A stretch of 64,000 nucleotides of DNA from Opitutia bacterium. Its GTDB lineage: Bacteria; Verrucomicrobiota; Verrucomicrobiia; Opitutales; Opitutaceae. Below are positions 25,833 through 59,497 of this stretch, piece by piece. The DNA lies in the NCBI GenBank assembly GCA_947449835.1, contig CANFSZ010000007.1, positions 1-64,000 of the forward strand, written 5' to 3'. The translations under genes were made by a program, and so were the position numbers. The number at the start of each line of letters is the position of its first letter. The stretch's first letter is position 1. The notes under the pieces were generated by a model that worked only from the letters and a program-made list of their open reading frames with translations, was not told the DNA's origin and made no database searches.

Positions 25833-25864
25833 CTTACTGAAACATCGCCGCGCTAGATTAAGGC

Positions 25865-32530: not shown

Positions 32531-33484
32531 TTACTGATCAAGAAATCCGACCTTGCCGCCACCGCGCACGACTTCGCGCACCACGGACTGCGGACGCTGA
32601 TTCACCGCGAGAAACATCCGGCCGATGTATTCGCCGATAAGTCCGAGCAACACCAGTTGCGTGCCCGAGAACACCAGCAGCGCCGCCATCAGCGAGCCCC
32701 AGCCATAAGAGGGCCCCGAATCACGCCACCAGAGCCACGCCACCACCCCGAAAACAATCAAACCGAGCGCCGCCAAGAGCAGACCGAGGCCCGTCGCTAA
32801 GCGGAGGGGCAACACCGAAAAATTAATCCACGCGCTCAGCCACAAGCGCACCAAGCGCCGCAGCGTGTAACCGCTGGCGCCGGCCTGCCGTTCATCGTGC
32901 CGCACTTCGAGCGAGCCGATGCGTTGCGTGACTTGTAAAATCAGCCCGTCAACATACGGCAGCGGCCCGGTGTTCACGGCGACCTCCTTTGCGACAAACG
33001 CCGTCACGCACCGAAAACTCGAAAGATAAAATCCCGGAGGTTTCTCGAGCGCCCAATCGGTCATGCGATTCGTGAACCAACTCCCCAGATTGCGCCACGC
33101 CGAATGCTGCTTCACGGCGTAATGTCCGAACACGACATCGAGACCCGTGGTCTTCGCGTGGGCCCACATCCGCACTGCTTCATCGGGCGGATTTTGGCCA
33201 TCGTCGTCGAGATTCACGATGTGTTCGCCGCGCGCCTGCCGCCAGCCGCTCAAGACGGCGTTGTGTTCGCCGTAGTTGCGCGCGTGCTCCACATAAATGA
33301 TCGGCACCTGCGCCTCCGCCACGAGCCGGCGGCACACCTCTGCGGTGCCGTCGCGGCTGCCGTCGTTGACCAACACGATTTCATGGCCGCCCTCGATCGT
33401 GAGCGCTTCGATCCGTTTCACCAGCGGGCCGATGGTTTCGGCGCTGTGGTAGAGCGGAATCACAAAACTAAGCGCGAGTTTCAT
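32531..33484 (-). CDS. Membrane-anchored glycosyltransferase family 2, GtrB/ArnC (polyprenyl-phosphate glycosyltransferase)-like
   Basis: SFVIPLYHSAETIGPLVKRIE, LVNDGSRDGTAEV, NLDDDGQNPPDEAVRMW, two C-terminal TM helices and LVLLGLIGEYIGRMFLAVNQRPQSVVREV. Confidence 0.88.
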   Translation of the reverse strand: MKLALSFVIPLYHSAETIGPLVKRIEALTIEGGHEIVLVNDGSRDGTAEVCRRLVAEAQVPIIYVEHARNYGEHNAVLSGWRQARGEHIVNLDDDGQNPPDEAVRMWAHAKTTGLDVVFGHYAVKQHSAWRNLGSWFTNRMTDWALEKPPGFYLSSFRCVTAFVAKEVAVNTGPLPYVDGLILQVTQRIGSLEVRHDERQAGASGYTLRRLVRLWLSAWINFSVLPLRLATGLGLLLAALGLIVFGVVAWLWWRDSGPSYGWGSLMAALLVFSGTQLVLLGLIGEYIGRMFLAVNQRPQSVVREVVRGGGKVGFLDQ

Positions 33485-34482
33485 AGGTAATGGGGCAACT
33501 CCTTGCGATAGTACGCGAGCGTTTTTGTCAAAGCCGCGCGCAGGTCTGTCCGGGGTTTCCAGCCGAGCATTCGGCCGATTTTTCGGTCATCCGCATAGTA
33601 ATCGCCGATGTCGATTTTCTTCCGCTCCGCAGGAAACGTGCGCACGGCAAACGCGCCGCCTTGATTCACTTCGACCATCAACTCGGCGAGGCGCTGCAAC
33701 GTCACCGGCGGCGGTCCGCCGAGATTAAAAACTTCACCGACGGCCTCGTCCTTCGTCGCAGCGAGCAAGAACGCCTCAACGGCGTCATCCACGTAAGTAA
33801 AGTCGCGCTGCTGTTCGCCGCCCCAGACTTCGATCGCGTCGCCTTCGATCAACTGGCGCACCCACACGCCGACAAAGGTCTGCCGCGCATCCTTCACGCG
33901 CATTCTGGGGCCGATCGTATTCGTCAGCCGCAACGCCGTCGCCCGCAGCCCATGCACGCGCGCATAGAGCATGTGAAACGCCTCGCCCGCGGCCTTGTTG
34001 ATGCCGTTCACGTCCACGGGGCGCACGGGGTGGCGTTCATCGACGGGCAGGTAATCGGGCTTGCCGTAAATCTGGCGCGTGCTCGCGAACACGATGCGCA
34101 CCGCAGGATTATTTTTTCGACAGGCCTCGAGTAACGCGAGCTGAGCCCGACAGTTGATTTCAAGATCCGTCTCCGGATCCGTCATCGAATCCATGTGGCT
34201 GGTTTGCCCGGCGAGATTAAATAAAAATTCTTGCCCGCGCACGAGTCGTGCGAGCTTCGCGTGCTCCCGCACATCGGTGCGATGGATGCTGATTTTTCCC
34301 GCCAGACCAGCCAGGTTGCGCCGATTGCCTCCGTATTCGGGGATCATCGCATCGACCACCGTGACTTTGGCGCCGAGCGCGACTAAGGCCCGAGCGAGGT
34401 TGGAACCGATGAACCCCATGCCGCCCGTGATGAGCACACGACGTCCCGCAAACGAGCGCGCGAGAAATTTAGATTCAGCCAT
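33481..34482 (-). CDS. NAD-dependent epimerase/dehydratase (UDP-glucose 4-epimerase-like)
   Basis: VLITGGMGFIGSNLARALVALGAKVTVVDAM, FNLAGQTSHMDSMTDPETDLEINCRAQLALLEAC, RDFTYVDDAVEAFLLA; 4-bp ATGA overlap with next gene. Confidence 0.88.
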   Translation of the reverse strand: MAESKFLARSFAGRRVLITGGMGFIGSNLARALVALGAKVTVVDAMIPEYGGNRRNLAGLAGKISIHRTDVREHAKLARLVRGQEFLFNLAGQTSHMDSMTDPETDLEINCRAQLALLEACRKNNPAVRIVFASTRQIYGKPDYLPVDERHPVRPVDVNGINKAAGEAFHMLYARVHGLRATALRLTNTIGPRMRVKDARQTFVGVWVRQLIEGDAIEVWGGEQQRDFTYVDDAVEAFLLAATKDEAVGEVFNLGGPPPVTLQRLAELMVEVNQGGAFAVRTFPAERKKIDIGDYYADDRKIGRMLGWKPRTDLRAALTKTLAYYRKELPHYL

Positions 34483-34562: not shown

Positions 34563-36770
34563 TCACGCCTTAGGCGCATCCGTGTCGCGTTTCACTTCAA
34601 TTTCCAACCCATAGAGCGCTAAACCGAGCGGACGTCCCTGCGCGGGCACGGGCCGGGGACGTGCCGGGCTCAAGCGCAACTCCAGCACACTCGCTCCCGC
34701 TGGCACTGCGAATTCAGGGACACGCACCACGTCCAAATTTTCCGTCAGTTGCACCGTGCGCATCAGCTGGCCATTAAGCCAGAACTGCAACTCCCGCGGC
34801 TCCTCGCAACGCGCATTAAAGTGCGCAACCACGCGAAGAGGTCGGGCCTGCGGATTATCTACACGCAACGTCGCATCGCCTCGCGTCCAATTCCAACGGA
34901 CCGGTGAGCGCGCCAACTGCTCCAGCGCATACCACCCCTCGCCCAATCTCACGCGCAGGAAATAAGGATGCGCCGTATTCGCGATCGAGAAATGCGCACC
35001 GAGGCGTTCACTCCCGCCGTCGGGCAGTCGCAGTGAGATCAACCCGCCATTCAAATCCCAAGCGCCGCGCAAAGGCGTGTTGAGCCGGCCTTCATACGTG
35101 TGCGTTTCGAAATACTGCGGCTTTTTGAGCAAAAGCGCATGAGCCCAAAGCCGCGACCACATGTCAGGCACGAGCAAGTTCAACGACGTCACCTCCGCGC
35201 GCGCCTCCAGTTTCCGCAGCTGACGCAGTTCTCCATCCACGATCAACGGCGCCGTGCTCAAGCGCGAAAACACCATACTCGTGCCGATCAGATTGCCCGT
35301 AACCACGAGAAGTATCACGGCGACCACGCTACGTTTATCGCGGGGCTTACCACTCCAGCGCAACGCCACCCAGCCACAAAACGACGGCAACATCACCGGA
35401 TAAAACACCGAAAATAATTTGTACGCATCGTAGCTCGCGTTGGTACCAAAAACGGCTCCGCGCCATTGCAAAAACACGTAGCCCACCAGGACCGGCAACG
35501 TCATCGCGAGGGCGGTCCAGGCCTTGGCCCGACGTTGCCGCCAGGACCGCCAGCCCACCCATATCCAAAGCAGTATCACGCATCCGGCCAGCACCGCATT
35601 CAACCCCGCAGCACGCCAAGGCTCCAATTCCGGCCCGCTGACCAACCCCAACCAACCGTCCGGGCCCAACGCAGGAATTTTCCATCCAAAATCATACGTA
35701 CGCAGCAGTTGAAAGCGCTCGATCAATCCCGCGACCCGCCCGAAAAAAATCACCCCGCAAGCGACCAATGGCACGAGCATCGCCGCGAGCCACCGGCCAC
35801 CGCGCGCCCACGATCGGTTCCAACACATCCTGCCGGCCACGTAGGCCACGGCCGGCACCAGAACGATCACGATAATAAAATTATAACTGCCTAATAAAAT
35901 CCAATAACCCACCACCAAGACGCCGGCGAAACGTGCCGCGTTCAGCCACGTCAAACGCGCCCGCCACAACGCCACACCCGACCACGTGATCAAACCCACC
36001 GCCATCGCCGCCAGCAATTGCCCCGGAGCGACATGCCCCACCGCGTACCAAGTCAACGGACTCAGCCCATAAAGCGCCGCGATTACCACACTCTCCCGCC
36101 CACCAAAACCTAACAAAGCCCGCGCCATCCAAAACACCACCGGCACCGATCCCGCCAATAACACCATCGTGAAAAGGCTCGTCAGCTCGTGCGGCTGGCA
36201 GCCTAAAACCGAACCATTAAAAGCAATCAACGCCGACGGCGTGAAATGATTCAACCGCGTCCAATAATCAAAAAAATTATCTACCGACTGCACGCTGACC
36301 ACTTCCTTTAGCCCCAAAAATCCACTGCGATCATCCTTCGCGAATTCCTGCAAGACCCGCGCGCCCGCCGCGTAGTCGCCGGCATCGCAACTCCCCAAAG
36401 AAAACGTCGTCAGACCTTTTGAGACCCAAGCCAAAGGCATCACCAACACCCCCAACACCACGAAAACAACGCCCCAGATCCACGTGAACCGTTGCACATC
36501 CAGCCACGCCGCACGCCCATTTACGCGACGCCCCGCGAGCAGGAGCAATCCCAACGGCAACACCTCACTTCCCAACGCATAACTATTGGTGCCCTTGAGC
36601 CCAGCCAACGCTCCGGCCCAGACCACCGCCGATTGTAAGGCCAACCCCGCCGGCACCACCAGCACCGGCCAAAATTTCCGCCAACGCCACGGCATCACCC
36701 AGACCGCCAAACCCGCGCCCCAGAAAACCACGTGAGCGAGGACCGCGAAGGCGACGAAAAAATGAATCAT
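34563..36770 (-). CDS. Large polytopic membrane protein with C-terminal WxW[ST]xG module (putative GT-C type)
   Basis: 735 aa, ~12 hydrophobic segments, C-terminal soluble region with GWYALEQLARSPVRWNWTRGDATLRVDN... Confidence 0.65.
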   Translation of the reverse strand: MIHFFVAFAVLAHVVFWGAGLAVWVMPWRWRKFWPVLVVPAGLALQSAVVWAGALAGLKGTNSYALGSEVLPLGLLLLAGRRVNGRAAWLDVQRFTWIWGVVFVVLGVLVMPLAWVSKGLTTFSLGSCDAGDYAAGARVLQEFAKDDRSGFLGLKEVVSVQSVDNFFDYWTRLNHFTPSALIAFNGSVLGCQPHELTSLFTMVLLAGSVPVVFWMARALLGFGGRESVVIAALYGLSPLTWYAVGHVAPGQLLAAMAVGLITWSGVALWRARLTWLNAARFAGVLVVGYWILLGSYNFIIVIVLVPAVAYVAGRMCWNRSWARGGRWLAAMLVPLVACGVIFFGRVAGLIERFQLLRTYDFGWKIPALGPDGWLGLVSGPELEPWRAAGLNAVLAGCVILLWIWVGWRSWRQRRAKAWTALAMTLPVLVGYVFLQWRGAVFGTNASYDAYKLFSVFYPVMLPSFCGWVALRWSGKPRDKRSVVAVILLVVTGNLIGTSMVFSRLSTAPLIVDGELRQLRKLEARAEVTSLNLLVPDMWSRLWAHALLLKKPQYFETHTYEGRLNTPLRGAWDLNGGLISLRLPDGGSERLGAHFSIANTAHPYFLRVRLGEGWYALEQLARSPVRWNWTRGDATLRVDNPQARPLRVVAHFNARCEEPRELQFWLNGQLMRTVQLTENLDVVRVPEFAVPAGASVLELRLSPARPRPVPAQGRPLGLALYGLEIEVKRDTDAPKA

Positions 36771-37531: not shown

Positions 37532-37622
37532 GCGCGAAAGCTGATTGGGCGCGGGCCCCGTCCGCCCGCAACATTAAACATTGCCGCCCGCCAGTACGAT
37601 CGTGCTCTCTCCCCGTCCATTC

Positions 37623-38612
37623 ATGCGTCGTCTTTTTGACTCCCTCGACACCCCGCTGGGTCGCGCTTCGCGTTATATTTTTTCGACGCTGTTGATCGCC
37701 GTCTTGTTTGGGCAACTCGACTGGAAAGCGATCGGTCAACTCCGCGGACAATGGGCCGTCGGTCCGGTTATTTTGGGCACGCTCGTCGCTGGCGTTACGT
37801 TTCCTCTGCACGCTTGGCGCTGGTGGCTGCTGCTGCGTGCCCAAGGCCTCGCGCTCTCGCTGCCTTGGGCTCACGCGGTCACGTGGATCGGTAATTTCTA
37901 CAACGCGTTTTTACTGGGCGGCCTGGGGGGCGACACCGCCCGCACGTACTACGTGTGCCGAGACGCGCCCGAATACAAAGCGGCCGGGCTCGCCGCGACC
38001 TTGCTCGACCGCATCCTCGGTCTGATCGTGCTGCTCAGTATAGCCGCCGTCGCCCTCGTGCTCCAGCTCGATGCCTTGGCGCACCACCCAGAATTCCGCC
38101 AACTGCTTTATTTCTGCACCACGCTCAGTTTTCTGGGCGTGGTCACCGGATTCGTTTTCTGCCGCCGCCCGCCAGCATGGCTCGCACGACGAATCGGTGA
38201 AACGCACACGGCCACACTGACCTCCATCCTCGCGCACCTACAGTCGAAGCCCCTGACCCTGCTCACCGCATTGGCGGCAAGCTATGCGATCTGGCTCCTC
38301 GATTTCGTGGCCGTTTGGTTACTCGCCCAAGCCGTCAATCTGCCGCTGCATTTTATCGACGTTACGCTCGCTATGTCGGTCGCGTACGCTTCGACCATTT
38401 TGCCCATCAGTGTGGGCGGCCATGGCATCCGCGAAGGCGCCCTCCTTGCTACGCTGACCGCCTTGGGTGCCCTCGCAACCCCAGCCGCGCAGGAGCAAGG
38501 TCTGTTGCTGGCGCTGCTGGTCTGGTTGAGCACGATTTTCTGGAGCTTATTTGGCGGACTTTTTTCCCTCGCCGCCCCGCACCTTATCCCGGCGTCAAAA
38601 ATCCAGCAATGA
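37623..38612 (+). CDS. Lysylphosphatidylglycerol synthase TM-region/UPF0104-like flippase-type membrane protein
   Basis: ~330 aa polytopic; WLLLRAQGLALSLPWAHAVTWIGNFYNAFLLGGLGGDTARTYYV, SVAYASTILPISVGGHGIREGALLATL; start at ATG 37623 preferred. Confidence 0.8.
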   Translation: MRRLFDSLDTPLGRASRYIFSTLLIAVLFGQLDWKAIGQLRGQWAVGPVILGTLVAGVTFPLHAWRWWLLLRAQGLALSLPWAHAVTWIGNFYNAFLLGGLGGDTARTYYVCRDAPEYKAAGLAATLLDRILGLIVLLSIAAVALVLQLDALAHHPEFRQLLYFCTTLSFLGVVTGFVFCRRPPAWLARRIGETHTATLTSILAHLQSKPLTLLTALAASYAIWLLDFVAVWLLAQAVNLPLHFIDVTLAMSVAYASTILPISVGGHGIREGALLATLTALGALATPAAQEQGLLLALLVWLSTIFWSLFGGLFSLAAPHLIPASKIQQ

Positions 38613-38723: not shown

Positions 38724-40451
38724 TTGCCAACGCCACCGTCCGTTAGCTTTGTTAGCCACAACGGCCCTAGCCGTTTTCACCTGATGCCCACCGCTTCCCG
38801 CACGCCCCCTTTTGGCGGCGCCTTCGCCCGGCGCTTTACGCACTACAACGGCATTTTCTTCGACGACTACGCGACTGATTCCGCTTGGATTCGCGAAACC
38901 GCGCAACTCCGACTGCCCCCGCTCGACGGCATCACCCGCCTCACCCTCCGCGGCGAGTACCGCCCGCACCCCGCCGCCCACGGCCTCGAAAAAAATCCAC
39001 CCTCGCTCTCGGTTTTTCTCAACGGCTCGCTCGTCAGCGCGCTCAGCAACTTCGCGCCCGGTCCGTGGGAAATCATCGTCCCGCTTCCGGCCCCTGCGCC
39101 CACGGCGGGTTTCACTCTCACGCTCCGCCTCGGTGGCACCGCGCTCACCAACGCTCTCGCTTGGCTCGCCCGCGTGTCCGGCCTCAGCCCATTACAACGC
39201 TTCCGCGCTCAAAATAAAAACCGCGCCCTCCGCCTCACTGCGCTCACCACCAACGCCATGCCGGCCGCGCCCGCTGAGTTGATCTACGATTTCTCGCGCC
39301 GCCACGCGCCGTTCCGCGCTGAGTTCGCCCGGCGACACGCGCACCTCGGGCTCAACATCGCCGGCTTCCTAACCGCCGATCTCGGCCTCGGCGAATCCGC
39401 CCGCTGCATGGTCCGCGCCGCCGATGCCGCCGACATTCCCGCCGCGCTCGTGCCGCTCAAGCTCAACTGCAAAAACCGCCTGGGCGATCTCACCTACGCC
39501 GCCCGCCTCACCGACGAAAATCCTCACGACGTTAACATCATCCACGTCGACCCGCCAGCCTCGCGCGATCTCGATCATCACCACGGGAAAGATTTTCGCG
39601 CCGGCAAATACAACATCGCTTATTTCGCTTGGGAACTGCCCGAGTTTCCCGACGACTGGGTGCCGTCCTTCGATTACTACGACGAGATTTGGTGCCCCAG
39701 TGATTTCGCCCGCGCCGCCATCGCCGAAAAATCTCCGCTGCCCGTGCTCACGTTCCCCCACGCGATCAGCGTCGCCGCGCCTACCGCAGACACCGCCGCG
39801 CTCCGCGCGCGGCTGGACCTGCCCGCAACACCGTTTTTGTTTCTCACGCTTTTCGATCTCAATTCCTACGCCGAGCGCAAAAACCCGCGCGCCGCCCTCG
39901 CCGCCTTCCGCGAATCCGGCCTGCCTGCGGCCTCGGCCAACTTGGTCGTTAAAGTCCAGAATCTCGCCGGCAACGAAGCTGATTTCGCCCGCCTGCAAGC
40001 CGACGCCGCCCGCATCCCCGGCATCCATTTCATCACCGAAACGCTCTCGCGCGCCGACATCTACGCCCTCGAAGCCGCGTGCGACGTGTTTGTTTCTTTG
40101 CACCGCTCCGAAGGCTTCGGGCTCGCCGTCGCTGAATGCATGGCGCTCGGCAAACCTGTCATCTCCACCGATTGGTCGGGCACGGCGGAATTCGTTAACA
40201 TCAACAACGGCTGCCCGGTGCGCGCGCCGTTGATCACGCTCACGTCTAATCACGGCCCTTACGCCAAAGGCCAAACGTGGGCCGATCCCGACATCGCGCA
40301 CGCCGCCGCGCACATGCGCACGCTTTTCGCCGACCGCGGCCTTTGCGGACGTCTCGGTGCGGCCGCGCGTGCGACGATCACCGAAAAATTTTCGCCGGCC
40401 GTCATCGGCGCGCGTTACCGGCGTCGGCTCGAAGCGATCGCCGGCTTCTAA
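38724..40451 (+). CDS. Glycosyltransferase family 4 with N-terminal extra domain
   Basis: C-terminal GT4 features: AACDVFVSLHRSEGFGLAVAECMALGKPVISTDWSGTAEFV; N-terminal ~170 aa not GT-like. Alternative start 38784. Confidence 0.82.
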   Translation: MPTPPSVSFVSHNGPSRFHLMPTASRTPPFGGAFARRFTHYNGIFFDDYATDSAWIRETAQLRLPPLDGITRLTLRGEYRPHPAAHGLEKNPPSLSVFLNGSLVSALSNFAPGPWEIIVPLPAPAPTAGFTLTLRLGGTALTNALAWLARVSGLSPLQRFRAQNKNRALRLTALTTNAMPAAPAELIYDFSRRHAPFRAEFARRHAHLGLNIAGFLTADLGLGESARCMVRAADAADIPAALVPLKLNCKNRLGDLTYAARLTDENPHDVNIIHVDPPASRDLDHHHGKDFRAGKYNIAYFAWELPEFPDDWVPSFDYYDEIWCPSDFARAAIAEKSPLPVLTFPHAISVAAPTADTAALRARLDLPATPFLFLTLFDLNSYAERKNPRAALAAFRESGLPAASANLVVKVQNLAGNEADFARLQADAARIPGIHFITETLSRADIYALEAACDVFVSLHRSEGFGLAVAECMALGKPVISTDWSGTAEFVNINNGCPVRAPLITLTSNHGPYAKGQTWADPDIAHAAAHMRTLFADRGLCGRLGAAARATITEKFSPAVIGARYRRRLEAIAGF

Positions 40452-40457
40452 GCGCGA

Positions 40458-42122
40458 TTATTTTTTGACGGGGATCGGCGCGAGCTCGGGCACCTTCCCG
40501 ACCACGCGGATTTCTAGATTGCGCAGGCTAAACGCCACTTTGCGCGGGTCGCCGTTGCTCGGGAATTGAGCCGCCTTATCGGTGTCGAATCGCCACACGG
40601 TATCACCGGGCGGCAAGAGCACACCGTTGAGCGCCACGCCGCGCAAGGTATGCACGGTTTCGCCCGCCCACAGCACGGCACCACCAGCGCCCTCGGCACG
40701 CACGTTCACCTTGCGCTCGTCACTGCTCTTCAGGTCGAAGGCGATATCGACCTGAATCGGAAACGGATGGGGATTGCGGAGCACCACCTCGGCGGCGCCC
40801 CGACTCCAGCGCCAATAATCAAAACGCGAGCGCTCGGGCAGATACCATTCTTCGTCTTTGAAGATCGCTTCGATCGTGCGGCCCGTCGACTCGACCATGC
40901 GCAAGGCCCGCGGGCCTTCGAGGCGGAAACTTTCGCGCCCCGGCGGCTTGAGCGTTTCGCTCGAGAAAAACACCGTAAGATTTCCGAGCAGCAATAAAAC
41001 CCACCAAGCCCGCCCGCGCGGCACGAGAATGTTAAACGCGAGCGTCATCGGCAGCAGCACGCGCGAAGCTGCCCCCGGGTAACCTTCCCAGACGGCATCG
41101 CCCAATACCACCAACAACATCGCATAACCGATTCCGGCCCGCCACCAAGCCTCGCTCCAGCGCGGCCGCAGCACGAAAAACAAACACTGCGCCGTGAGCG
41201 CCACCAACATCAGCGCGCTCCATAATCCGATGGAGCCCGCGTCGTCGGTCTTAAACACCGCCCACGTCTCCACCCACTTGTTAAAATAACCGACCAACGG
41301 CAGAGAAAAATTCCGCGCGCCCGCATCGCCGCCGTTACCAAGCCATAATTTTAAAATCACCATCCATACCGCCAACGGCGCGACCACCACCAAGCCCTGC
41401 GCGATCGCGCGCAACCAACCGCGCCGATCGCGCGCATTCGCCGGTGCAAACGTTGCTCCCGCGATGATGTTAGTTTCCTTGCCGAGTCCCGCTAGTCCCA
41501 ACACGCCAGCCGCCCACCACGAGCGCCCGCGCTCCGCCAAAATCATTCCCACGGCGATCAACAAGAGACTGGGCCCGTCGACCAGCGATCCCCGCACGCT
41601 GAAACAAAGCCCAAAAGAAAACATCACCCCAAACCAACGGAAAAAATTCCCCCAGAGTGTCGGCGGAAACCAGTACAGCAATAGGGCCGCGAGCAGAAAC
41701 CAGCACACGATATTCTGCACAGCGTAAATGTGCAGGGCCCACGCCGGATCTCCGCCCGCGAGGCCATACGCAGTCCAACAAAATAAAATCCGCCGCGCCC
41801 GATACGGCAACGAATCCACGGCCGCCCCCAGCGCCCGATTGCTCAACCACGGCCGCATCGCGATTTGCGCATAATATTGGGCATCGTAACCGGTCGAGTC
41901 GGGCTCCTCGTAGTGGTTGATCGCCTTGAGCGCTGGGACGTAGCGCTCACTGACTTTACCGCCAAACATCACCAGATAAGTGAAGCCCTTGCCCGGCACA
42001 TAAAATTGCGCGCAGATCCACACGAACAATGCCACGGTGGCGGCATAGGCAAAACGCAAAAACCAGGATGCGTTGCGTTGATAAAATGGGATCAGTCTGG
42101 CCACGAAGAGTTCAGACGCCAA
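40458..42122 (-). CDS. Polytopic membrane protein, family A copy 1 (putative GT-C glycosyltransferase)
   Basis: FYVPGKGFTYLVMFGG...STGYDAQYYAQIAMRPWL...LPYRARRILF; C-terminal EEWYLPERSRFDYWRWSRG; shares blocks with 46136-47746 and 49316-50869. Confidence 0.7.
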   Translation of the reverse strand: MASELFVARLIPFYQRNASWFLRFAYAATVALFVWICAQFYVPGKGFTYLVMFGGKVSERYVPALKAINHYEEPDSTGYDAQYYAQIAMRPWLSNRALGAAVDSLPYRARRILFCWTAYGLAGGDPAWALHIYAVQNIVCWFLLAALLLYWFPPTLWGNFFRWFGVMFSFGLCFSVRGSLVDGPSLLLIAVGMILAERGRSWWAAGVLGLAGLGKETNIIAGATFAPANARDRRGWLRAIAQGLVVVAPLAVWMVILKLWLGNGGDAGARNFSLPLVGYFNKWVETWAVFKTDDAGSIGLWSALMLVALTAQCLFFVLRPRWSEAWWRAGIGYAMLLVVLGDAVWEGYPGAASRVLLPMTLAFNILVPRGRAWWVLLLLGNLTVFFSSETLKPPGRESFRLEGPRALRMVESTGRTIEAIFKDEEWYLPERSRFDYWRWSRGAAEVVLRNPHPFPIQVDIAFDLKSSDERKVNVRAEGAGGAVLWAGETVHTLRGVALNGVLLPPGDTVWRFDTDKAAQFPSNGDPRKVAFSLRNLEIRVVGKVPELAPIPVKK

Positions 42123-42146
42123 AGTCTACCCGCACTCAACGCAAGA

Positions 42147-43655
42147 ATGGATTCTCCGACCGCCGCCGCAAATGCTTTACCTGCGCACCACTCGACGTGG
42201 TGGCGCACACTCTTTTTATGCGGATTTGTTGTTTATGCGTTTTTTTTAATTCGTCACGTGGGTGCTCAAGCCGGGGGCTCAGATTCCTCGGGTTATCTCA
42301 ATAACGCCCGCCTGCTCGCCGCGGGTCAGACGGCCACCCCGCAGCGCATTCCGCCGGGAATCGACGCGGCCCAATTCGACTCGTTCACGTTCATCCCGCT
42401 CGGCTTTCGACCGATGCCCGACGCCCAGATGGCCCCGACGTATCCGATCGGTTTGCCCTTGGTGCTCATCGCCGCGGCCAAAATTGTCGGATGGGAACTC
42501 GCCCCACCACTCGTGATGGTGGTCAGCGCCTTGCTCGCAGCCGCGTTGATGATTCCGCTCGGGCGCGCCGCGGGCTTGGCGCCGGGCTGGACTGCCGGTG
42601 GGGCGCTGTTGTTCGCGACGTGTCCGCTCACGACGTTTATGTCCGTTCAGCTCATGAGCGACATTCCCGCTACGACGGTCGCGCTTGTCGCGATTGGGTG
42701 CGCTTGGCGCAGCCGCTCGCGCAGAAGTTGGGCGCTCGCCGCCGGCGCGGGTTTCGCACTCGGGGTGTTGATTCGCCCGACCAACTTCATGCTCATCTTG
42801 CCGATCGCGGTGTGCCTCGGGCTGGATGGGCGACGTTGGTTACTACTTGGACTCGGTGGGTTTCCCGGCGCGCTCGTGCAGTTGTTTTATAACTCGGCCG
42901 CCTACGGCAACCCGTTCGCCTCCGGTTACGGCGACGATCTTGGGTCAAAATTTTCCCTCGGGATCGTGCCCGCCACGCTCGCGCATTATGTGCGATGGCT
43001 GCCGGTGTTACTCACGCCGGTCGGCATCCTCGCGGTGGTGCTCCCGTGGGTCGAACGCCGAACGCGTTTTGCGTGGGTCTTGATCGCGTGGACGGTGCCG
43101 CTTCTGGCGTTATACGCGGGCTACTGGCATACGCATGAATGGTGGTGGTATCTGCGTTTTCTGCTGCCGACGTTTCCTGCGATTATCATCGGAGGGTTGT
43201 GGGTCCTGCGGGAACTATGGGTTCGTCACTTGGCCCCAAGAATGCCGAGCCCGCTTGTAGCCCGAAGCTGCGGCATCGCCGCCATTTTAGTTATCCTCAT
43301 CCACGCCGCAGTTTGGCATCATCGACTCAACGCTCACCTCATCGGCTTTGGTGAATCCGTGTATCCGGAATCGAGCACGTGGGCTCGCGCACATCTGCCG
43401 GCGGATGCGATCATCCTCACCGAACAAACCAGTGGCGCGTTGATTTATTACACTGATTTTTCGTTGGTGCGGTGGGATAGCTTAAATCCCGAAAAATTCG
43501 CCCGTCTTACTGCGGTCGCCGGAAAACGTCCGATAGTGGCTGCTCTTTTCCCCCATGAGGTCGAAGCAGCTCTTGCCCCGCGCCTGCCGGGACGTTGGCA
43601 AAAAATTGGCGCCGTACGTCACGTCACTTTTTGGCAATGGTCACCCGAGGGTTAA
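42147..43655 (+). CDS. Polytopic membrane protein, family B copy 1 (GT39/ArnT-like)
   Basis: GGSDSSGYLNNARLLAAGQ; MSVQLMSDIPATTVALVAIG; TSGALIYYTDFSLVRWDSL; start ATG 42147 preferred over 41865. Confidence 0.7.
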   Translation: MDSPTAAANALPAHHSTWWRTLFLCGFVVYAFFLIRHVGAQAGGSDSSGYLNNARLLAAGQTATPQRIPPGIDAAQFDSFTFIPLGFRPMPDAQMAPTYPIGLPLVLIAAAKIVGWELAPPLVMVVSALLAAALMIPLGRAAGLAPGWTAGGALLFATCPLTTFMSVQLMSDIPATTVALVAIGCAWRSRSRRSWALAAGAGFALGVLIRPTNFMLILPIAVCLGLDGRRWLLLGLGGFPGALVQLFYNSAAYGNPFASGYGDDLGSKFSLGIVPATLAHYVRWLPVLLTPVGILAVVLPWVERRTRFAWVLIAWTVPLLALYAGYWHTHEWWWYLRFLLPTFPAIIIGGLWVLRELWVRHLAPRMPSPLVARSCGIAAILVILIHAAVWHHRLNAHLIGFGESVYPESSTWARAHLPADAIILTEQTSGALIYYTDFSLVRWDSLNPEKFARLTAVAGKRPIVAALFPHEVEAALAPRLPGRWQKIGAVRHVTFWQWSPEG

Positions 43656-45118
43656 CTTTTCTGACGGCGCCGCGCTCGTTTCCGCGGCTTCTCGTCGTGC
43701 TGGCAGCGCTCGGTTATGCGGCCTTCATTTATTTTGAAGGCTCACCCTTCGCCGCCGGCTCAGATTCTTCAGGCTACCTGAACAGCGCCCGTCTACTCGC
43801 TCAAGGAGAGTTTGACGCGCCCGTAAATTCGCTGCCGCAACTCGCGCCGCCCGACTGGCATTATTATTGGCAAGAACCGCTAGGTTTTACAGCTAAACAT
43901 CTGACACCGCGCATGGCGCCCACGTACCCAACAGGTCTGCCGCTCCATCTGGTGCTTGCCTCGCCGATTGTCGGTTGGGAAAAAGCCGCGCGCCTCGTCA
44001 ACGTCCTCAACGTCCTCGCTGCCGCCGCGCTCCTGTACGCGTTGGCGCGCCACTTGGCACTTTCCCGAGCTTGGGCTCTAAGCGGCGTCGCTTTTCTTTG
44101 GGCTAGCCCGCTCTTTATTTTTCAATCGCTGCAACCGTTAAGCGACGCCGTCGCGCTCACGTGGTCACTCGCGGCGATTTTATGCGCGCTGAAATCACGC
44201 CAACACGGACCTTGGGCGATAGCCGCGGGTGCAGCGTTAGCCATCGCGGTACTCGTGCGGCCGACGAGCGTGTTAATCGCCCTGCCGTTGAGCCTAGCGC
44301 TGCCCTTTGCAGGACGTCGCTGGCTCGCCGCCGCGTTGGGCAGCGCGCCCGGAGTGGCGTGGTTTTTTTATTACAACACCCAAGCCTACGGTTCCGCGTT
44401 TACCACCGGCTACGGAGACGTCAGTACTGCCTTTCACTCGAGATTTATCATCAGCAACCTGGCCCATTTTACGTGCTGGGTTCCGCTGTTGGTTTCCCTG
44501 CCGCTCACCTGCGCTGCCGTCTTTCTGCCTTGGCGCCGGCCAACATTCACTCCGCCGCGCACGATCTTAATGCTCGCGACATGGATCGGGGTTCTAGTCA
44601 TTTTCTACGTGTCGTATTTTTGCGCGGGTTCGATCTGGTCTGAAGTGCGTTTTTTATTGCCGGGATTTCCGGCGGTCATTCTAGCCGGACTTCTCGTCGC
44701 GCAACTATGGCGCCCCTCGCCGCCTTGGTGGATGCTCGTACTCGGCCTCAGCGCGCAAGTGCTACTTGCAAATCAGCTCCGCGTCACCGGTATCCGCGAC
44801 CAAGAACGCGCCTATCGTGTCGCTACGAGTTGGCTGGAAACTCATATCGCGCCGGGCTCCGTCTTACTCACGGCGCAACTCAGCGGCGCCGCACATTATT
44901 ATAACGATCTCAATCTCGTGCGCTGGGACATTCTTCCGCCTCATCACCTACCCCAACTGCGCGCCGCCGCCGCCAAAGCCCCGCGCGAGATCTACGCCGC
45001 GCTCTTTATCCCCGAAATTTCCGCCGCGCAATCCGCCTTCCCCGAAGCTCGCTGGGAGCAGATCGGCGAAACCCCCGGCGTGAAATTTTTTCGACTGCTC
45101 CCTTCGGACTCGCGCTAA
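43637..45118 (+). CDS. Polytopic membrane protein, family B copy 2 (GT39/ArnT-like)
   Basis: AGSDSSGYLNSARLLAQGEFD; FQSLQPLSDAVALTWSLAAI; LSGAAHYYNDLNLVRWDIL; start ATG 43637 overlaps copy 1 by 19 bp. Confidence 0.7.
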   Translation: MVTRGLTFLTAPRSFPRLLVVLAALGYAAFIYFEGSPFAAGSDSSGYLNSARLLAQGEFDAPVNSLPQLAPPDWHYYWQEPLGFTAKHLTPRMAPTYPTGLPLHLVLASPIVGWEKAARLVNVLNVLAAAALLYALARHLALSRAWALSGVAFLWASPLFIFQSLQPLSDAVALTWSLAAILCALKSRQHGPWAIAAGAALAIAVLVRPTSVLIALPLSLALPFAGRRWLAAALGSAPGVAWFFYYNTQAYGSAFTTGYGDVSTAFHSRFIISNLAHFTCWVPLLVSLPLTCAAVFLPWRRPTFTPPRTILMLATWIGVLVIFYVSYFCAGSIWSEVRFLLPGFPAVILAGLLVAQLWRPSPPWWMLVLGLSAQVLLANQLRVTGIRDQERAYRVATSWLETHIAPGSVLLTAQLSGAAHYYNDLNLVRWDILPPHHLPQLRAAAAKAPREIYAALFIPEISAAQSAFPEARWEQIGETPGVKFFRLLPSDSR

Positions 45119-45155
45119 AGATAAATCGGGCTCCGTGTGATTTTTACCAAGCGGC

Positions 45156-46139
45156 TTATTCGCCTGTTTTTCTCAGCCAAATTTGGCCACCACCGCCACC
45201 CGCGCACAAAGGCATGCGCTCGCGCAAAAACCCATTCTGCACGTTGTAAATCCAACTCGTGAACATCTCCACGCGCCACGCGCGGTTATACATCAAAAAC
45301 GCCCTCAACAAATACTGCTCATTCCACGCGCGCCCTTGTTCAAACCAGTCCCGCGGATAATCCAAATTGCCCGTCACATCGTGGATGTGCACGAACACAC
45401 CCGGCTTAAGCACCGGCAACACGTCGAAGAAAAGTCGGTTCACATCGCTGCCGAGTTTACTGACGTGCGACGAATCAATAAACAGCACGTCACCCGACTC
45501 CAAAGCGGAAAACACGCTAGTCGGCACGTCCTGCACCTTCTGCTCAATCAAAGTCACGCGCGCCTGATCGTCGGGCTTTAACAATTTCCGTAGGCGACTC
45601 ATGTCGGGGTCGATAAACGTGAGCTGCATCCGCCCGTCCCAAGTAAATTCATTCAAGTCCAACATCGCCGCGGAACTGAAGCCCGAGCCCACTTCGATCA
45701 CCCGCCGCGCGCCCGCGTGACGCAGCATCAGATACAACATGATCCCGTCGAAATGCCCATAGGAGGGATTATCCAAATGATAACGTCGTCCCGCTACGGG
45801 TTGCTCTGGGAACGGCTGCTCCGCGTAAAACTCCGCCAACGTTTTCAAGAGCGCGATTTGCCCCGCTTCATTCACATCGACGCCGGGAAACGGCGGACCA
45901 AATCCGCCGCGCGCAAACGCCTCCGCCACCTCGGCGCGAGAAGTCTGCGGCGAATAAAAATGCCCGGGCGGAAACACCCAGTCGCGCTCGGCCGCTTCGG
46001 CCACGAGACGCGCGTTGGCCTTTTCCAAATCAGCTACGTCACGCCGTAGATCGGCTTTGTCGCCTTCGAGTTCGTGTACGCGAATTTCCAACCGACGCAC
46101 CAGTTTGAATCTGCGCAGAAAATTATCCCAAGCCTTCAT
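45156..46139 (-). CDS. Class I SAM methyltransferase with N-terminal coiled coil
   Basis: RRVIEVGSGFSSAAMLDL, LTFIDPDMSRLRKLL, GDVLFIDSSHVSKLGSDVNRLFFDVLPVLKPGVFVHIHDV; N-terminal LEIRVHELEGDKADLRRDVADLEKANARLVAEA. Confidence 0.8.
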   Translation of the reverse strand: MKAWDNFLRRFKLVRRLEIRVHELEGDKADLRRDVADLEKANARLVAEAAERDWVFPPGHFYSPQTSRAEVAEAFARGGFGPPFPGVDVNEAGQIALLKTLAEFYAEQPFPEQPVAGRRYHLDNPSYGHFDGIMLYLMLRHAGARRVIEVGSGFSSAAMLDLNEFTWDGRMQLTFIDPDMSRLRKLLKPDDQARVTLIEQKVQDVPTSVFSALESGDVLFIDSSHVSKLGSDVNRLFFDVLPVLKPGVFVHIHDVTGNLDYPRDWFEQGRAWNEQYLLRAFLMYNRAWRVEMFTSWIYNVQNGFLRERMPLCAGGGGGQIWLRKTGE

Positions 46140-47746
46140 TTTGAGCCTTCAGGTTTGGCGGCCGGACCCGCCCGCGCAACTGCGATGTCCACATCGTACA
46201 CCGCAAACGCCAGCACGCGTTCATCGCCGTTCGCGTGCTGCACGCCAGAAGCATCGGCGCTAAATTCAATTTCCTGCGCCGCGTTAGCCGGAATCGAAAA
46301 CAAGGCCGTCTCAAAAGCCTCACGCTTCACCGCCACCGCGCCCTTCCAAAGTGCGACATCGCCCGCACGGATCGTTACGCGCATAGGTTTCAACGCGGCA
46401 ACTTCGCCGCTGAGCCGCACCGTCACGGATTCTTTCGAGGTATTGGTCAGCCGCAACCGCCCCGGACCGCTGCTCCAACGCCACTGCCGGCGGCCATCGC
46501 CTTCCGCCCCATACCAACCCACCCCACGCTCCCATTTTATCTGGGTGCGCACCGCACGTTCACCGCTGACCACAAAATTTTCATGCGGGGGCGCATTAAA
46601 TTCGTTCACCCCAACAATCGCCGAGAGGTTACCGAGCGCCAACACCGCCAACCACCGGCGCCCACGTGGTACGAGCAGGTTAAACGCGAGCATCATCGGC
46701 AGCAGCACGCGCGTCGCTGCGCCTGGATAACCTTCCCACACCGGCTGCGCGATGAAGAGCATCAGCACCGCGAAACTCGCCCCGATGCGCCACCACATTT
46801 TTCTCGGCTCACGGTGCAGCAAAAAAAACGCCGCCTGCGTCACCAAGGCCACCAGCACGAGCACATTACCCACGACCTGAGGTTCGATATTCCCAGCGAA
46901 TAATTCGCTCACAACGGTCGCAAGCTTCTCACCCAACCCAACCAAGGGCAGCGTAAAATTTCCCAGACCGGCGTCGTGATTGGCGCCAAGATGCCAGCGC
47001 ACATAACCCAGCCACGCGGCAAAGGGTAAGATCGCCAGCGCGCCCCAACTCGCTGCCACGGCCCACGCCCGCCAGACGCTGCCGCGTGACGGGATCAACG
47101 CTGTGCCTGCGAGCAAGCTCGTCTCTTTCGTCAAAAGCGCCGCCCCGAGCGCGACGACGGCACTGGGTTTTCGGCCTCGCTCAAGCGACACGACCATCAA
47201 GGCCACCAGCAAAAGACCTGGCGCATCCGCGAGCGAATTACGCACACTCATGCACATGCCGTGGGAAAATAAAATGCCCGCCCAGCGCAGCAGATTCCCC
47301 GCATTGTCCGGCGGCAACCAGCGCAATAGCACCCACGCGAGGGCGAGCCATACACCAACATTTAATAGCGCGAAAATCTGCACGATCCAGTGCGCCCGCC
47401 CAAGACCCAGAGTCCAAGCGACCCAACTCGGCAAAATCCGCCGCGCCCGATAAGAGGGGTTATCAATGGACTGCTTGAGTTGCTCGGGTTCATCTAGCCA
47501 CGGATGCAACGCGAGTTGGACGTAATACGTCCCGTCGTAGCCCCAAGAATCTTCGATCGTGTAATGGGGCACCGCCCGCAATCGCGGGACCGCCCGCTCG
47601 TCTGACTTGGCCCCGATCGACAGCAAACTCGTAAAACCCGAACCGGGAACATGGAAACGCGCCACCAAGCCCAAAAACGTCAGCGCCAAAACCAAGTAAG
47701 CGAACCGAAAACGCCAGCGCCATACCGCTATCAAGGCCCTTTTCAT
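46136..47746 (-). CDS. Polytopic membrane protein, family A copy 2
   Basis: FHVPGSGFTSLLSIGAKSDERAVPRLRAVPHYTIEDSWGYDGTYYVQLALHPWL...PSYRARRILPSW; C-terminal VGWYGAEGDGRRQWRWSSG. Confidence 0.7.
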   Translation of the reverse strand: MKRALIAVWRWRFRFAYLVLALTFLGLVARFHVPGSGFTSLLSIGAKSDERAVPRLRAVPHYTIEDSWGYDGTYYVQLALHPWLDEPEQLKQSIDNPSYRARRILPSWVAWTLGLGRAHWIVQIFALLNVGVWLALAWVLLRWLPPDNAGNLLRWAGILFSHGMCMSVRNSLADAPGLLLVALMVVSLERGRKPSAVVALGAALLTKETSLLAGTALIPSRGSVWRAWAVAASWGALAILPFAAWLGYVRWHLGANHDAGLGNFTLPLVGLGEKLATVVSELFAGNIEPQVVGNVLVLVALVTQAAFFLLHREPRKMWWRIGASFAVLMLFIAQPVWEGYPGAATRVLLPMMLAFNLLVPRGRRWLAVLALGNLSAIVGVNEFNAPPHENFVVSGERAVRTQIKWERGVGWYGAEGDGRRQWRWSSGPGRLRLTNTSKESVTVRLSGEVAALKPMRVTIRAGDVALWKGAVAVKREAFETALFSIPANAAQEIEFSADASGVQHANGDERVLAFAVYDVDIAVARAGPAAKPEGSK

Positions 47747-47828
47747 GCGTGCGAGATGCGCTGCGCCGCGCGCTTAAGGGTTGTCCGGTTCGTAAACAAT
47801 CTGTCGCATCACAAAACCACCTTCCGGC

Positions 47829-49319
47829 ATGTCAAATCCGAACCCCAGTCCTTCTGCAGCCCCACGCTGGTTTGCGTGGCTGGCCGTCGTCGCGCTGTTA
47901 GTTTACAGCTGTTTTCTGGGCGCGTATTTTACGCCCGTCGCCGGCGGCTCCGATTCTTCCGGTTATCTCAACGCCGCCCGATTGCTCGCGCGAGGCCAAA
48001 TCACGGCGCCGATGCGTGATTTCTCCGGACTCACGGCGAGCTCGGCCACGCAGTTTCAACCGCTCGGCTTCATCGCCGAACCGGCCCGCCAAAGGCTCGT
48101 GCCAACGTATCCGCTCGGCCTGCCCACGCACCTCGCGATCGCCAGCACGTTGTTCGGTTGGACGATCGGGCCGCTACTGGTGGGTGTCGGGGCTGCCTTA
48201 GCCGCGATCGTTTTGATGTACGCCATCGCTCGCGAATGGGCGATCGCGTGGCCCCTCGCCGCCGCAGGCGCGGTGATGCTGGGCGTTTTCCCGGTTACGA
48301 TTTTTATCGCGATCCAACCGCTCAGCGACGTCCTCGCCACCACGTGGGTGCTTGCCGCGATTTACGCCGCGCTCCGTGCTCGAGGCTCACCGCGCTGGGC
48401 CGTCGCCACGGGCGTCGCCCTTTCGATCGCGATTTTTGCTCGTCCGACGAACGTGCTGATTTCACCCGCCATTGCCGCGTTACTGAGTGTCGGTTGGCGT
48501 CCGTTCATCACCGCTGTTATTGGCGGATTGCCGGGCGCGCTTCTTCTCCTGGCCACCAACGCGCACCTCTTCGGTTCACCGTGGCGCATGGGGTACGGCT
48601 CGATCTTCGAGGCCTTCGACATCGCTTACTTCGGACCGACACTACTGCACTTTGGAAAATGGCTCGGGTTATTGCTGCCCGGACTTGGCCTTTTTTTTGG
48701 GTTCATCAGCTTTGGCTTTAGCCGCGCCAGTCTGCGTAACCGGATCGCGCTCGCGCTTTGGTTTTTCACGCCCGTGATTTTTTACGCGTATTACGAGGTG
48801 TCCGGGCAAACGTGGTGGTGCCTCCGCTTTATTCTGCCTGCGGTACCCGCTCTGATTCTGTCGGCGCTTTTTACGCTGGATTATTTTTTAGCGCTCCACT
48901 CGCGCACCGTGCGGATGGCGTCTGCTTTACTCGCGATTTGGGCCATAGGGTTGTCGGTGTTTTGGACGCGCGAGTTTCATACGCTGCTTAGTAAAACTTA
49001 TGAGCAAGCCTACGCCGAAATCGGCCAGTGGTCGCACGATCATCTCCCTGCGAACACCGTCTTGCTCACCAACAATGATAGCGGCGCGCTCTATTATTAC
49101 ACGTCGTTCCCGATTTTACGTTGGGACCAAATGAGCACTGCCGAATTCACCCAACACGCCGCGCACCTCACGCGGTCCGATCGCCCGCTGCATCTGATCA
49201 CCACTGAGGCCGAAGAAAATCATGTCCTCACCCAGCGCATACCCGCACGCTGGGAAAAAATCACGACCGTAGCCCAGCGCAGCATCTGGCGCTACAACGG
49301 ACCCGCCACAACTCCATGA
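47829..49319 (+). CDS. Polytopic membrane protein, family B copy 3 (GT39/ArnT-like)
   Basis: GGSDSSGYLNAARLLARGQI; IAIQPLSDVLATTWVLAAI; DSGALYYYTSFPILRWDQM. Confidence 0.7.
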   Translation: MSNPNPSPSAAPRWFAWLAVVALLVYSCFLGAYFTPVAGGSDSSGYLNAARLLARGQITAPMRDFSGLTASSATQFQPLGFIAEPARQRLVPTYPLGLPTHLAIASTLFGWTIGPLLVGVGAALAAIVLMYAIAREWAIAWPLAAAGAVMLGVFPVTIFIAIQPLSDVLATTWVLAAIYAALRARGSPRWAVATGVALSIAIFARPTNVLISPAIAALLSVGWRPFITAVIGGLPGALLLLATNAHLFGSPWRMGYGSIFEAFDIAYFGPTLLHFGKWLGLLLPGLGLFFGFISFGFSRASLRNRIALALWFFTPVIFYAYYEVSGQTWWCLRFILPAVPALILSALFTLDYFLALHSRTVRMASALLAIWAIGLSVFWTREFHTLLSKTYEQAYAEIGQWSHDHLPANTVLLTNNDSGALYYYTSFPILRWDQMSTAEFTQHAAHLTRSDRPLHLITTEAEENHVLTQRIPARWEKITTVAQRSIWRYNGPATTP

Positions 49320-50869
49320 CCGCAAACACCCGCCGATGGACCTTGCGCGGCAGCGCCGTTTTGGCTGTCGCCCTTTTTCTGACGCTCGTCGCCCAATTCT
49401 GGCACCCCGTCTACGGTCTCACCGCGCTGATCCAACTCGACGCCCCCAACGACGACTTAAAAATCTCCGCCTTCCGCGCGTACCCCGTCTACGTCCACCG
49501 CGACACCGGCGGCTACGATGGGCTCTACTACGCGCAGATCGCCTACGATCCCACCTTGCGCTCAACAGAACTTCCGCGCGCGATGGACAATTTTTCATAT
49601 CGCGCACGACGTATTCTGCCCCCGGCCTTCGCTTGGTTTTTCTCCGCCGGTCAACCGGCCGCCATCGTCCACGTTTACTCTTTTCTCAATGTCGCAACGT
49701 GGCTGTTCATGGCTGCGCTGCTCTGGCGCTTGCTCGGCGTAACGGATTTTCGCGGCTGGCTCGCCTGGGCCGGCGTGCTTTTTTCCGCCGGAGCGCTCAG
49801 CAGTGTGCGCCTCGCGCTCACCGATTTGCCGATGCTGGCTTTACTCACGCTCGCCGTGATCGCGGCCGAACGCGCCCGCCCCCGCACCGCTATCGCTTGG
49901 CTCGCCTCGGCAGCGCTCGCGCGCGAAACCGCGTTGCTTGGGGCCAGCGGTCTGCTCACGCGTCCATGGATTTCAGTTAAAAATGTGTGCGCGTGCGCCT
50001 TCGTGGCAGCCCCGCTTTTTGGTTGGCTCGCCTACATCCGTTGGCGGCTCGGTCCCGCTGATTCAGGCTGGGCTAATTTCACGCTCCCCATGGCCGGCTA
50101 CGCTGAAAAATTCGCGACCACACTCGTGGATCTATTCTATCTCGACGACACGCTCCTCGCTTGGACCACGTTTCTTGCCGTCGTGGGACTCACTGTTCAA
50201 GCGCTGTTCATCGTCTCCCGTTGGCGTCACTTCAACGACGCTTGGTGGCGTATCGGCGCGGCCTATACGGCTTTGATGGCGATGATCGGTACCGCCGTTT
50301 GGGAAGGTTACCCTGGAGCTTGCACGCGCGTGCTGCTGCCCCTGACGCTCGCGTTCAACCTCCTCGCCCACCGCACCCGCGCCGCTCTCGCGTGGCTCAT
50401 ACTCGGGAATCTCGGGGTCGGCGCCGGCTTTCTCGTGTTGCGCGATTTTCCCGTCAACACCCACGAGCTCTTCGCGGGCCGCGCGGGCGGGGCCGCCACA
50501 GTGATCCAGATCGACTCCGGTTGGTTTGGCGCGGAACACACCCCAAAGCACGTTTGGTCTTGGAGCTCGGGGCGTTCCCTACTCGCCCTCCGCACGTGGG
50601 CCGATGCTCCCGTCCAAGCCCAACTCGACTTCGGCCTGCGGAGCCTCACGCAGCGCACCGTCATCCTCCGCTCAGCCGAAAGAGAACTTTGGCGCGGCCA
50701 AGTCGGCGAAAAAACCACGCGTTTCAGCATCCCGCTCACGCTTCTACCTGGCGACACGCGACTCGAATTCTCGACTGACTCACCCGCGATCCGCGAAAGC
50801 GCCAACGCCGATGCTCGCGCCCTCGCCTTTGCGCTTTATGATCCGCGTCTGAGCGTCCCCAATCCCTAG
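49316..50869 (+). CDS. Polytopic membrane protein, family A copy 3
   Basis: FWHPVYGLTALIQLDAPNDDLKISAFRAYPVYVHRDTGGYDGLYYAQIAYDPTL...FSYRARRILPPAFAW; C-terminal SGWFGAEHTPKHVWSWSSG; ATGA overlap with upstream gene. Confidence 0.7.
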   Translation: MTANTRRWTLRGSAVLAVALFLTLVAQFWHPVYGLTALIQLDAPNDDLKISAFRAYPVYVHRDTGGYDGLYYAQIAYDPTLRSTELPRAMDNFSYRARRILPPAFAWFFSAGQPAAIVHVYSFLNVATWLFMAALLWRLLGVTDFRGWLAWAGVLFSAGALSSVRLALTDLPMLALLTLAVIAAERARPRTAIAWLASAALARETALLGASGLLTRPWISVKNVCACAFVAAPLFGWLAYIRWRLGPADSGWANFTLPMAGYAEKFATTLVDLFYLDDTLLAWTTFLAVVGLTVQALFIVSRWRHFNDAWWRIGAAYTALMAMIGTAVWEGYPGACTRVLLPLTLAFNLLAHRTRAALAWLILGNLGVGAGFLVLRDFPVNTHELFAGRAGGAATVIQIDSGWFGAEHTPKHVWSWSSGRSLLALRTWADAPVQAQLDFGLRSLTQRTVILRSAERELWRGQVGEKTTRFSIPLTLLPGDTRLEFSTDSPAIRESANADARALAFALYDPRLSVPNP

Positions 50870-50877
50870 CGCCGCCC

Positions 50878-52077
50878 ATGTCTGCCCCGTTTCTCCTCGA
50901 CCTCTCGCACACGAGCCACACGTCTGCCCGCACCGGCATCCAACGCGTCGCCCGCTCGCTCTGGCGCGAACTCGGCGACTCCGCTCGGCCCATCACGTAC
51001 GATCCCCACCAACGCACGTGGCGCGCCCTCGATGCCTGGGAACGCGATAATCTCGCCGCCGATTCCTTCAGCCGCAAACGGGGCGCCACGTGGCCACTCT
51101 CCGCGCGCCTCCGCGGCTATTCCCGCCGCCTGTTTTCATCGGCGCCTTCTACTCAGCACGCTTCCGCCCTCGCGCCCCACTCTGGCTTGCTCGTACCCGA
51201 GTTGTTCACGCCCGCCGTGGGGGCGACGTTGCCGGCTCTTTTCACCGCAACGAGTGGACCTCGCGCCGCCGTTTTCCACGACGCCATCGCGCTCAAATTT
51301 CCCGAGCTCACGCCCACGAAAACCGTCGCGCGTTTCCCCGCTTATTTGCGCGAACTGCTGGCCTTCGACGGCATCGCCGCCAATTCCGCAGACTCCCACG
51401 CCACGCTGGTCGCTTATTGGGATTGGCTCGGCGTGCCGGCCGCAGCGCGCCCCGTCGTCGTGACCATTCCGCTCGGCATCGATCAGCCTTCGGCCGTTGC
51501 GGCGGCGCACACCGCCCCTGAGTCGGCCTTGCCCGTCATCCTGTGCGTCGGCTCCCTCGAAGGTCGCAAAAACCACCTCGCGTTGCTCGAAGCGTGCGAA
51601 ACGCTTTGGTCCGCTGGCACTCGTTTTGAACTGCATCTGATCGGGCTCGCTCACCCGCAAACGGGACGTACCGCGCTCGCGCGCGTGCAATCGCTCCAAG
51701 CCGCCGGGCGCCCGCTCCGCTATTCTGGTCCCGTGAACGACGCGACCCTCGCTGCGGCTTACGCGGCCTGCGCGTTCACGGTTTATCCTTCATTGATCGA
51801 AGGGTTTGGTCTGCCGGTTTTGGAAAGTCTCGCGCGCGGCAAACCCTCCATTTGCGCCGCGCGCGGCGCACTCGGTGAAGCCGCCCGCGACGGCGGTTGC
51901 ATCGCGCTCGAGCAGGTCGATGCGCCCGCGCTCGCGGTCGCTATTGCGCGTTTACTTACGACGCCGAGCGAACTCGCTGCACTCGCTGGCGCCGCCCAAG
52001 CCCGCACGTTTCGCACGTGGCGCGACTACGCGCGCGATGTCGCCACGTGGCTGCCCACGCTTTCCCGCCGTCCATGA
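50878..52077 (+). CDS. Glycosyltransferase family 4
   Basis: ILCVGSLEGRKNHLALLEACETLW, AAYAACAFTVYPSLIEGFGLPVLESLARGKPSICA. Confidence 0.87.
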   Translation: MSAPFLLDLSHTSHTSARTGIQRVARSLWRELGDSARPITYDPHQRTWRALDAWERDNLAADSFSRKRGATWPLSARLRGYSRRLFSSAPSTQHASALAPHSGLLVPELFTPAVGATLPALFTATSGPRAAVFHDAIALKFPELTPTKTVARFPAYLRELLAFDGIAANSADSHATLVAYWDWLGVPAAARPVVVTIPLGIDQPSAVAAAHTAPESALPVILCVGSLEGRKNHLALLEACETLWSAGTRFELHLIGLAHPQTGRTALARVQSLQAAGRPLRYSGPVNDATLAAAYAACAFTVYPSLIEGFGLPVLESLARGKPSICAARGALGEAARDGGCIALEQVDAPALAVAIARLLTTPSELAALAGAAQARTFRTWRDYARDVATWLPTLSRRP

Positions 52078-53051: not shown

Positions 53052-53166
53052 GCGATCCGCCCGCCCACGATTTTGATCCCGATCCAGAGATGCAAACACG
53101 GCCTCTGGCTAACCTGTCTTTGCATTTGCCAACCCGCTTTCACCGCGCAGGGTTTTGAGCTCAGAC

Positions 53167-59244: not shown

Positions 59245-59433
59245 GCGTGGTGCAGGGTGAAGAAGCGCAGAAATCGAGGACCGTCAGCCAGTCCGTGCTT
59301 CCAAGCTTATGTTGAGATTATGGGATAAAATCGAGGGTGAAGTCCGCGCGGTCAACGCGGGAGATGACCTTCGTTTCAAGTGACAAGCCACACGACTTAC
59401 CCCGCCATCGTCACTTATATCAATAGTAGCGGC

Positions 59434-59462
59434 AAAAAAAACGGCGGCCGATCAGGCCGCCG
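59434..59462 (-). terminator. Rho-independent terminator (minus strand) after ACP-dehydratase gene
   Basis: Minus strand reads cggcggcc-tgatc-ggccgccg-tttttttt. Confidence 0.85.
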
Positions 59463-59497
59463 CTGGAGAGCATGAAAACAGGCAATATTCTCGAATT

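Follow-up and report, generated by a model that had tools for sequence, protein, structure and literature searches.

What is the role of six related membrane-protein genes that lie interleaved, in the order A1 B1 B2 A2 B3 A3, on a contig of an Opitutia bacterium? They represent two paralogous families, A and B, with three copies each, within the window, i.e. the whole 64,000-nucleotide stretch of DNA that was analysed. The original prediction was that they may be an undescribed set of paired periplasmic glycosyltransferases acting on polyprenyl-phosphate sugars. The interleaved array was confirmed as described, with all six reading frames intact and open and the previously named family motifs present, and it has the following layout:

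40458..42122, minus strand: A1, predicted GT-C-type membrane protein with a C-terminal CBM-like domain; A1 ortholog type
42147..43655, plus strand: B1, predicted ArnT/PMT-like GT-C protein, divergent from A1
43637..45118, plus strand: B2, second B paralog; Pfam PMT above the cut-off
45156..46139, minus strand: Methyltransf_24 protein, upstream of A2
46136..47746, minus strand: A2, predicted GT-C-type protein with a CBM-like domain; structure model
47829..49319, plus strand: B3, predicted ArnT-like GT-C protein; structure model
49316..50869, plus strand: A3, third A ortholog type

B1 and B2 overlap by 19 nt, the expected ATGA overlap joins B3 and A3 at 49316-49319, and A2 shares another ATGA overlap with the Methyltransf_24 gene. 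The true start of A1 is uncertain because it uses TTG and lies only 24 nt from B1. A2 and A3 are 37-39 % identical to A1, and B2 and B3 are 36-40 % identical to B1. The genome itself, a draft assembly of 3.0 Mb that is 87 % complete, contains exactly three A and three B genes, every copy within the array. Scanning the array for sigma-70 promoters gave fewer matches than shuffled sequence. Since both families recur in most sampled Opitutaceae genomes, they are not a product of chance.

In all six proteins the first membrane helix is followed by the motif D-x3-Y-x-[QN]-x-A, which was absent from the other window proteins checked. We aligned relatives, mostly from Opitutaceae contigs, in 59 rows for family A and 50 rows for family B, and every A (59/59) and B (50/50) sequence keeps the motif, bar one A-to-S change. 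The acidic first-loop Asp suspected from the window sequence is thus a fixed feature of both families. Invariant residues are D71, Y75, D174 and E208 in A and D42, Y46, D167 and R333 in B, with D71 and D42 located in the loop after TM1. Charged loops, judged by inspection and not by a topology program, fit an N-in topology that would place the first loop and the C-terminal domain of A outside. The characterised GT136 enzyme ORF12 cannot do without its first-loop D31, and its Y35A mutant is severely impaired (PMC11127046); D31 and Y35 share the +4 spacing of the A/B motif, as judged by comparing published residues and not by alignment.

The pairing of A with B received strong backing from adjacency, register and co-evolution. 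We surveyed 149 Opitutaceae genomes, not counting that of the window; both families occur in 78, A alone in 29, B alone in 5 and neither in 37, an odds ratio of 20 (Fisher p 9e-12, ignoring phylogeny), so the two families do not show the lack of co-occurrence that the original prediction had named as the contrary outcome. Of the best 60 B matches in relatives, 50 adjoin an A gene, and we counted 51 divergent A-B junctions and A-B-A triplets in 20 places; the two genome collections overlap and the pairing counts are not mutually independent. Sampling across the phylum detected full-length A and close B in no family but Opitutaceae.

The A tree contains three ortholog types. A1- and A2-type genes are divergent from a B gene and A3-type genes lie codirectionally downstream of one, the orientation state switching once on the tree. 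A3-type genes are codirectional after B wherever they adjoin one, with a single exception on a divergent branch (L123). On the B tree, the B3-type stands apart from the remaining B sequences. The types adjoin each other in register: divergent A1-type genes adjoin a B1/2-type gene in 29/29 cases and A2-type genes a B3-type gene in 23/23, and A3-type genes adjoin either B type. Because of the fixed positions of A and this register, the array reads as two old cassettes side by side, A1-B1-B2 and A2-B3-A3. A different arrangement was seen in genome G016 (contig C30, 59783-68958), where a same-strand array strictly alternates A B A B A B, as opposed to the usual divergent layout.

Distances within A and within B correlate at 0.71, compared with 0.26-0.45 for correlations with flanking genes. 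The partial A-B correlation after controlling for three neighbours is 0.66, a value reached in 0/999 permutations, and the within-type correlations are 0.27 (1/999 permutations) and 0.71 (0/999), in tests that keep some phylogenetic dependence. Flanking genes do not fully account for the co-evolution of A with B. Array parts have also been gained and lost: B2 is missing in the near relative L066, and is therefore an accessory gene; L070 has B1 in three broken fragments (8986-10225) next to an intact A1; and in L073 an intact A1 has no adjoining B. Both L070 and L073 still hold a B3-type gene.

Such losses bear on the best-surviving alternative, in which A and B each work on their own as GT-C enzymes at different steps of one glycan pathway, and their adjacency and register come from co-inheritance in a block. 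Gene blocks are often exchanged among surface-glycan loci. The 29 genomes with A alone mean that A does not always need B, A1 has outlived a broken B1 in L070, and each family keeps its own invariant acidic residues. However, the register and the partial correlation point to a coupling tighter than that to the neighbouring GT4 and serine palmitoyltransferase-like genes, although the same register could arise if A-B were transferred together as one block, a point that counts against the cassette reading. We consider independent enzymes a possible account, but a rather doubtful one.

Regarding family A, the membrane part of the AlphaFold model of A2 (pLDDT 93.6, pTM 0.89) matched EmbB best in a Foldseek search of the PDB (1.2e-4), followed by ALG9 and ArnT. 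Whole-chain TM-scores against known GT-C structures were low (0.25-0.39), and A is therefore assigned to GT-C on three grounds combined: the fold match, the GT87 profile, which matches 8/59 A members, and the hhalign match to B (E 8e-6, probability 83.7 %), in which the membrane part of A is colinear with B and the second-loop Asp is aligned. A PDB sequence search with the A profile gave only weak matches, to 'Cake' proteins. Judged by sequence profiles, family A lies near NCBIfam NF046093, the AZOBR_p60025 family ('cell surface glycopolymer formation'). This profile matches 59/59 A relatives at E <= 0.001 (best E 3.3e-44), but the window copies score 126-133 bits, under its curated cut-off of 150, and it spans only the N-terminal 232 positions, leaving the CBM-like domain outside. 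In the literature on AZOBR_p60025 we found no published mechanism.

The C-terminal beta domain of the A2 model matches CBM6/4/36/61 modules and is a predicted jelly-roll, in which W411, E415, W422, W424 and W467 are kept in at least 55/59 relatives. The C-terminal CBM of ORF12 binds the acceptor polysaccharide (PMC11127046), and in a review on Gram-positive systems it is speculated that a small GT-C may depend on another protein to bind its acceptor (PMC8035078). A might therefore be a non-catalytic acceptor-binding partner and B the sole catalyst, as the domain with its conserved Trp and Glu residues is present in A and absent from B. Yet D71, Y75, D174 and E208 are kept by every A relative, as expected of an active enzyme, which makes a non-catalytic A improbable.

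Regarding family B, the AlphaFold model of B3 (pLDDT 93.8, pTM 0.93) had ArnT as its top PDB match (Foldseek, E 1.9e-9), then ALG12, OST, PglB and AftD, and nearly all matches to rank 35 were GT-C enzymes. In the B relatives, PMT_2 was detected in 25/50 (E <= 0.001), Glyco_transf_22 in 11/50 and PMT in 8/50. In the window, B2 reached 23.4 bits with Pfam PMT, compared with a threshold of 22.7, and B1 and B3 had no significant Pfam match; a PDB sequence search with the B profile gave no match. Both families are thus confidently modelled as GT-C-type enzymes, in agreement with the fold that had been proposed for them, and models lacking this fold did not appear. The oligosaccharyltransferases PglB and OST among the fold matches of B could hint that A and B are oligosaccharide ligases or flippases and not monosaccharide transferases. 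We consider this very unlikely, as the top matches and profiles (ArnT, ALG12, PMT, GT87) are polyprenyl- or dolichyl-phosphate monosaccharide transferases and transporters matched the B3 model only at probabilities of about 0.1-0.2.

Six paralogs close together in one genome could also come from a recent tandem duplication in one strain without functional meaning, but this is refuted by the trees, with ancient types common to several genera and a single orientation change, and by dN/dS values of 0.09-0.17, calculated between orthologs of the two nearest relatives and the window. Purifying selection acts on all six genes, and on the same dN/dS values we rejected diversifying selection at the whole-gene level. 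Of the suggestion that the array is either old or selected for diversity, the A and B trees therefore support the first half, and the dN/dS values do not support the second.

The array is embedded in a surface-glycan locus, and many of its neighbour genes recur beside A-B in other genera:

32531..33484, minus strand: ArnC-like GT2, candidate polyprenyl-phosphate-sugar synthase; 24 related loci
33481..34482, minus strand: NAD-dependent sugar epimerase/dehydratase, overlapping the ArnC-like gene; 19 related loci
34563..36770, minus strand: P0007, large membrane protein, putative third GT-C; C-terminal domain common with family A
37581..38612, plus strand: flippase-like membrane protein (LPG_synthase_TM, TIGR00374); only 4 related loci
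38724..40451, plus strand: GT4 glycosyltransferase flanking the array; 41 related loci
50878..52077, plus strand: GT4 glycosyltransferase downstream of A3; 47 related loci

The GT2 is closest in NCBIfam to ArnC (undecaprenyl-phosphate Ara4FN transferase), below the cut-off. The C-terminal domain of P0007 matched that of A with an hhalign probability of 99.9 %, and its D129-x3-Y133 is kept in all 24 ungapped relatives. A relationship between the A C-terminal domain and the N-terminal domain of the GT4 at 38724-40451 was ruled out (hhalign probability 0.7 %). Methyltransferases and rmlABD-like genes, the latter named from Pfam and sequence, lie near the array, and the Methyltransf_24 gene is kept mostly beside A2-type genes. 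We found no dedicated flippase conserved among the related loci; GtrA and Wzx domains are encoded on other contigs of the genome, and a Wzy domain also elsewhere in the genome.

Several further genes of the window caught our attention. A serine palmitoyltransferase-like gene (BioF/Kbl family) at 53155-54366, conserved close to the A-B array in 45 of the related loci, hints at a link of a sphingolipid-type lipid to the surface glycan. The conserved locus also contains, at 57982-60481, a ketosynthase-like gene and what looks by eye like an ACP-dehydratase fusion; they could possibly provide an acyl chain dedicated to a glycolipid anchor. At 3399-7211, a YfhO-like membrane protein of 1009 aa (Pfam match weak, E 0.031) is followed by a GT2; the two resemble a YfhO/CsbB-type pair and are possibly a second extracytoplasmic glycosylation module. 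By eye, the large membrane protein encoded at 23679-25985, whose C-terminal repeats are TPR-like, resembles a TMTC-type O-mannosyltransferase.

The gene pairs lying side by side across Opitutaceae suggest that A and B decorate a surface polysaccharide together. We put the probability at roughly 0.6 that both are periplasm-facing GT-C glycosyltransferases which act in matched cassettes on one surface glycan and use polyprenyl-phosphate sugar donors. We infer catalytic activity, donor type, flipping, acceptor and A-B cooperation along the following lines. The ArnC-like enzyme of the locus, whose gene is indirect support for such a donor, would attach a sugar to polyprenyl phosphate in the cytoplasm, and this donor would be flipped across the membrane. 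On the periplasmic side, B, which has no CBM, and A would add sugars to a growing or finished polysaccharide, and the CBM-like domain of A may bind and hold the acceptor glycan. The cassettes A1-B1(-B2) and A2-B3-A3 probably differ in sugar or linkage. Against the cassette reading count the persistence of A1 without an intact adjoining B in L070 and L073, the low TM-scores of A and the lack of a conserved flippase. In a bolder version, to which we give only tentative credence, A and B would form obligate type-specific hetero-oligomers in which the CBM-like domain of A holds the acceptor and the two active sites take turns in adding sugars, and genomes would combine ancient cassette types to set their surface glycan.

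Several published systems are similar in part. The three-component pentofuranosylation of GT136 combines Citrobacter youngae ORF12 with a polyprenyl phosphoribose synthase and a MATE flippase (PMC11127046). By its published description, it shares with our locus the GT-C fold, the first-loop Asp with Tyr at +4, a C-terminal beta-rich CBM, and epimerase and lipid-donor genes nearby, but our candidate for the donor synthase is an ArnC-like GT2 and not a phosphoribose synthase, and two GT-C families are paired. Of the three-component scheme, the ArnC-like GT2 and the GT-C are present here, and a flippase-like gene lies in the window but in only 4 related loci. ArnT (GT83) and PMT (GT39) are close to B by best fold match and by PMT and PMT_2 profile matches, respectively, whereas B is only about 13-15 % identical to ArnT and most B members are weak on the profiles. 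The mycobacterial EmbA-EmbB pair (7bvc), EmbC and AftD likewise join a GT-C membrane part to a C-terminal CBM; however, A is globally only weakly similar to them (TM 0.39), and A and B are distant families, not close paralogs. The Gram-positive CsbB-GtcA-YfhO system (GT-A/flippase/GT-C) follows the same route from lipid-phosphate sugar through flipping to extracytoplasmic transfer, but with one GT-C per system in published examples, in contrast to the A-B cassettes here (PMC8035078).

The GT-C fold, CBM-bearing GT-C enzymes and lipid-phosphate donors are thus already known, and the strict A-B pairing appears to be undescribed. We found no description of in-register A-B cassettes in the literature, in which subscription journals were poorly covered, and a search on Opitutaceae glycans gave nothing useful. 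Of the predicted novelty, the conserved A-B cassette remains, and the families themselves are less novel, A being near NF046093 and B generic PMT/ArnT-like. The extracytoplasmic glycosylation systems compared use one GT-C per sugar, and the A-B pairing departs from that. An in-register pair, one member of which carries an acceptor-binding-like domain, offers a natural test of the two-protein GT-C speculation (PMC8035078). With it, a hypothesis of function is gained for NF046093, a family that has been named but for which we found no characterisation, and for a conserved surface-glycan locus of Opitutaceae.
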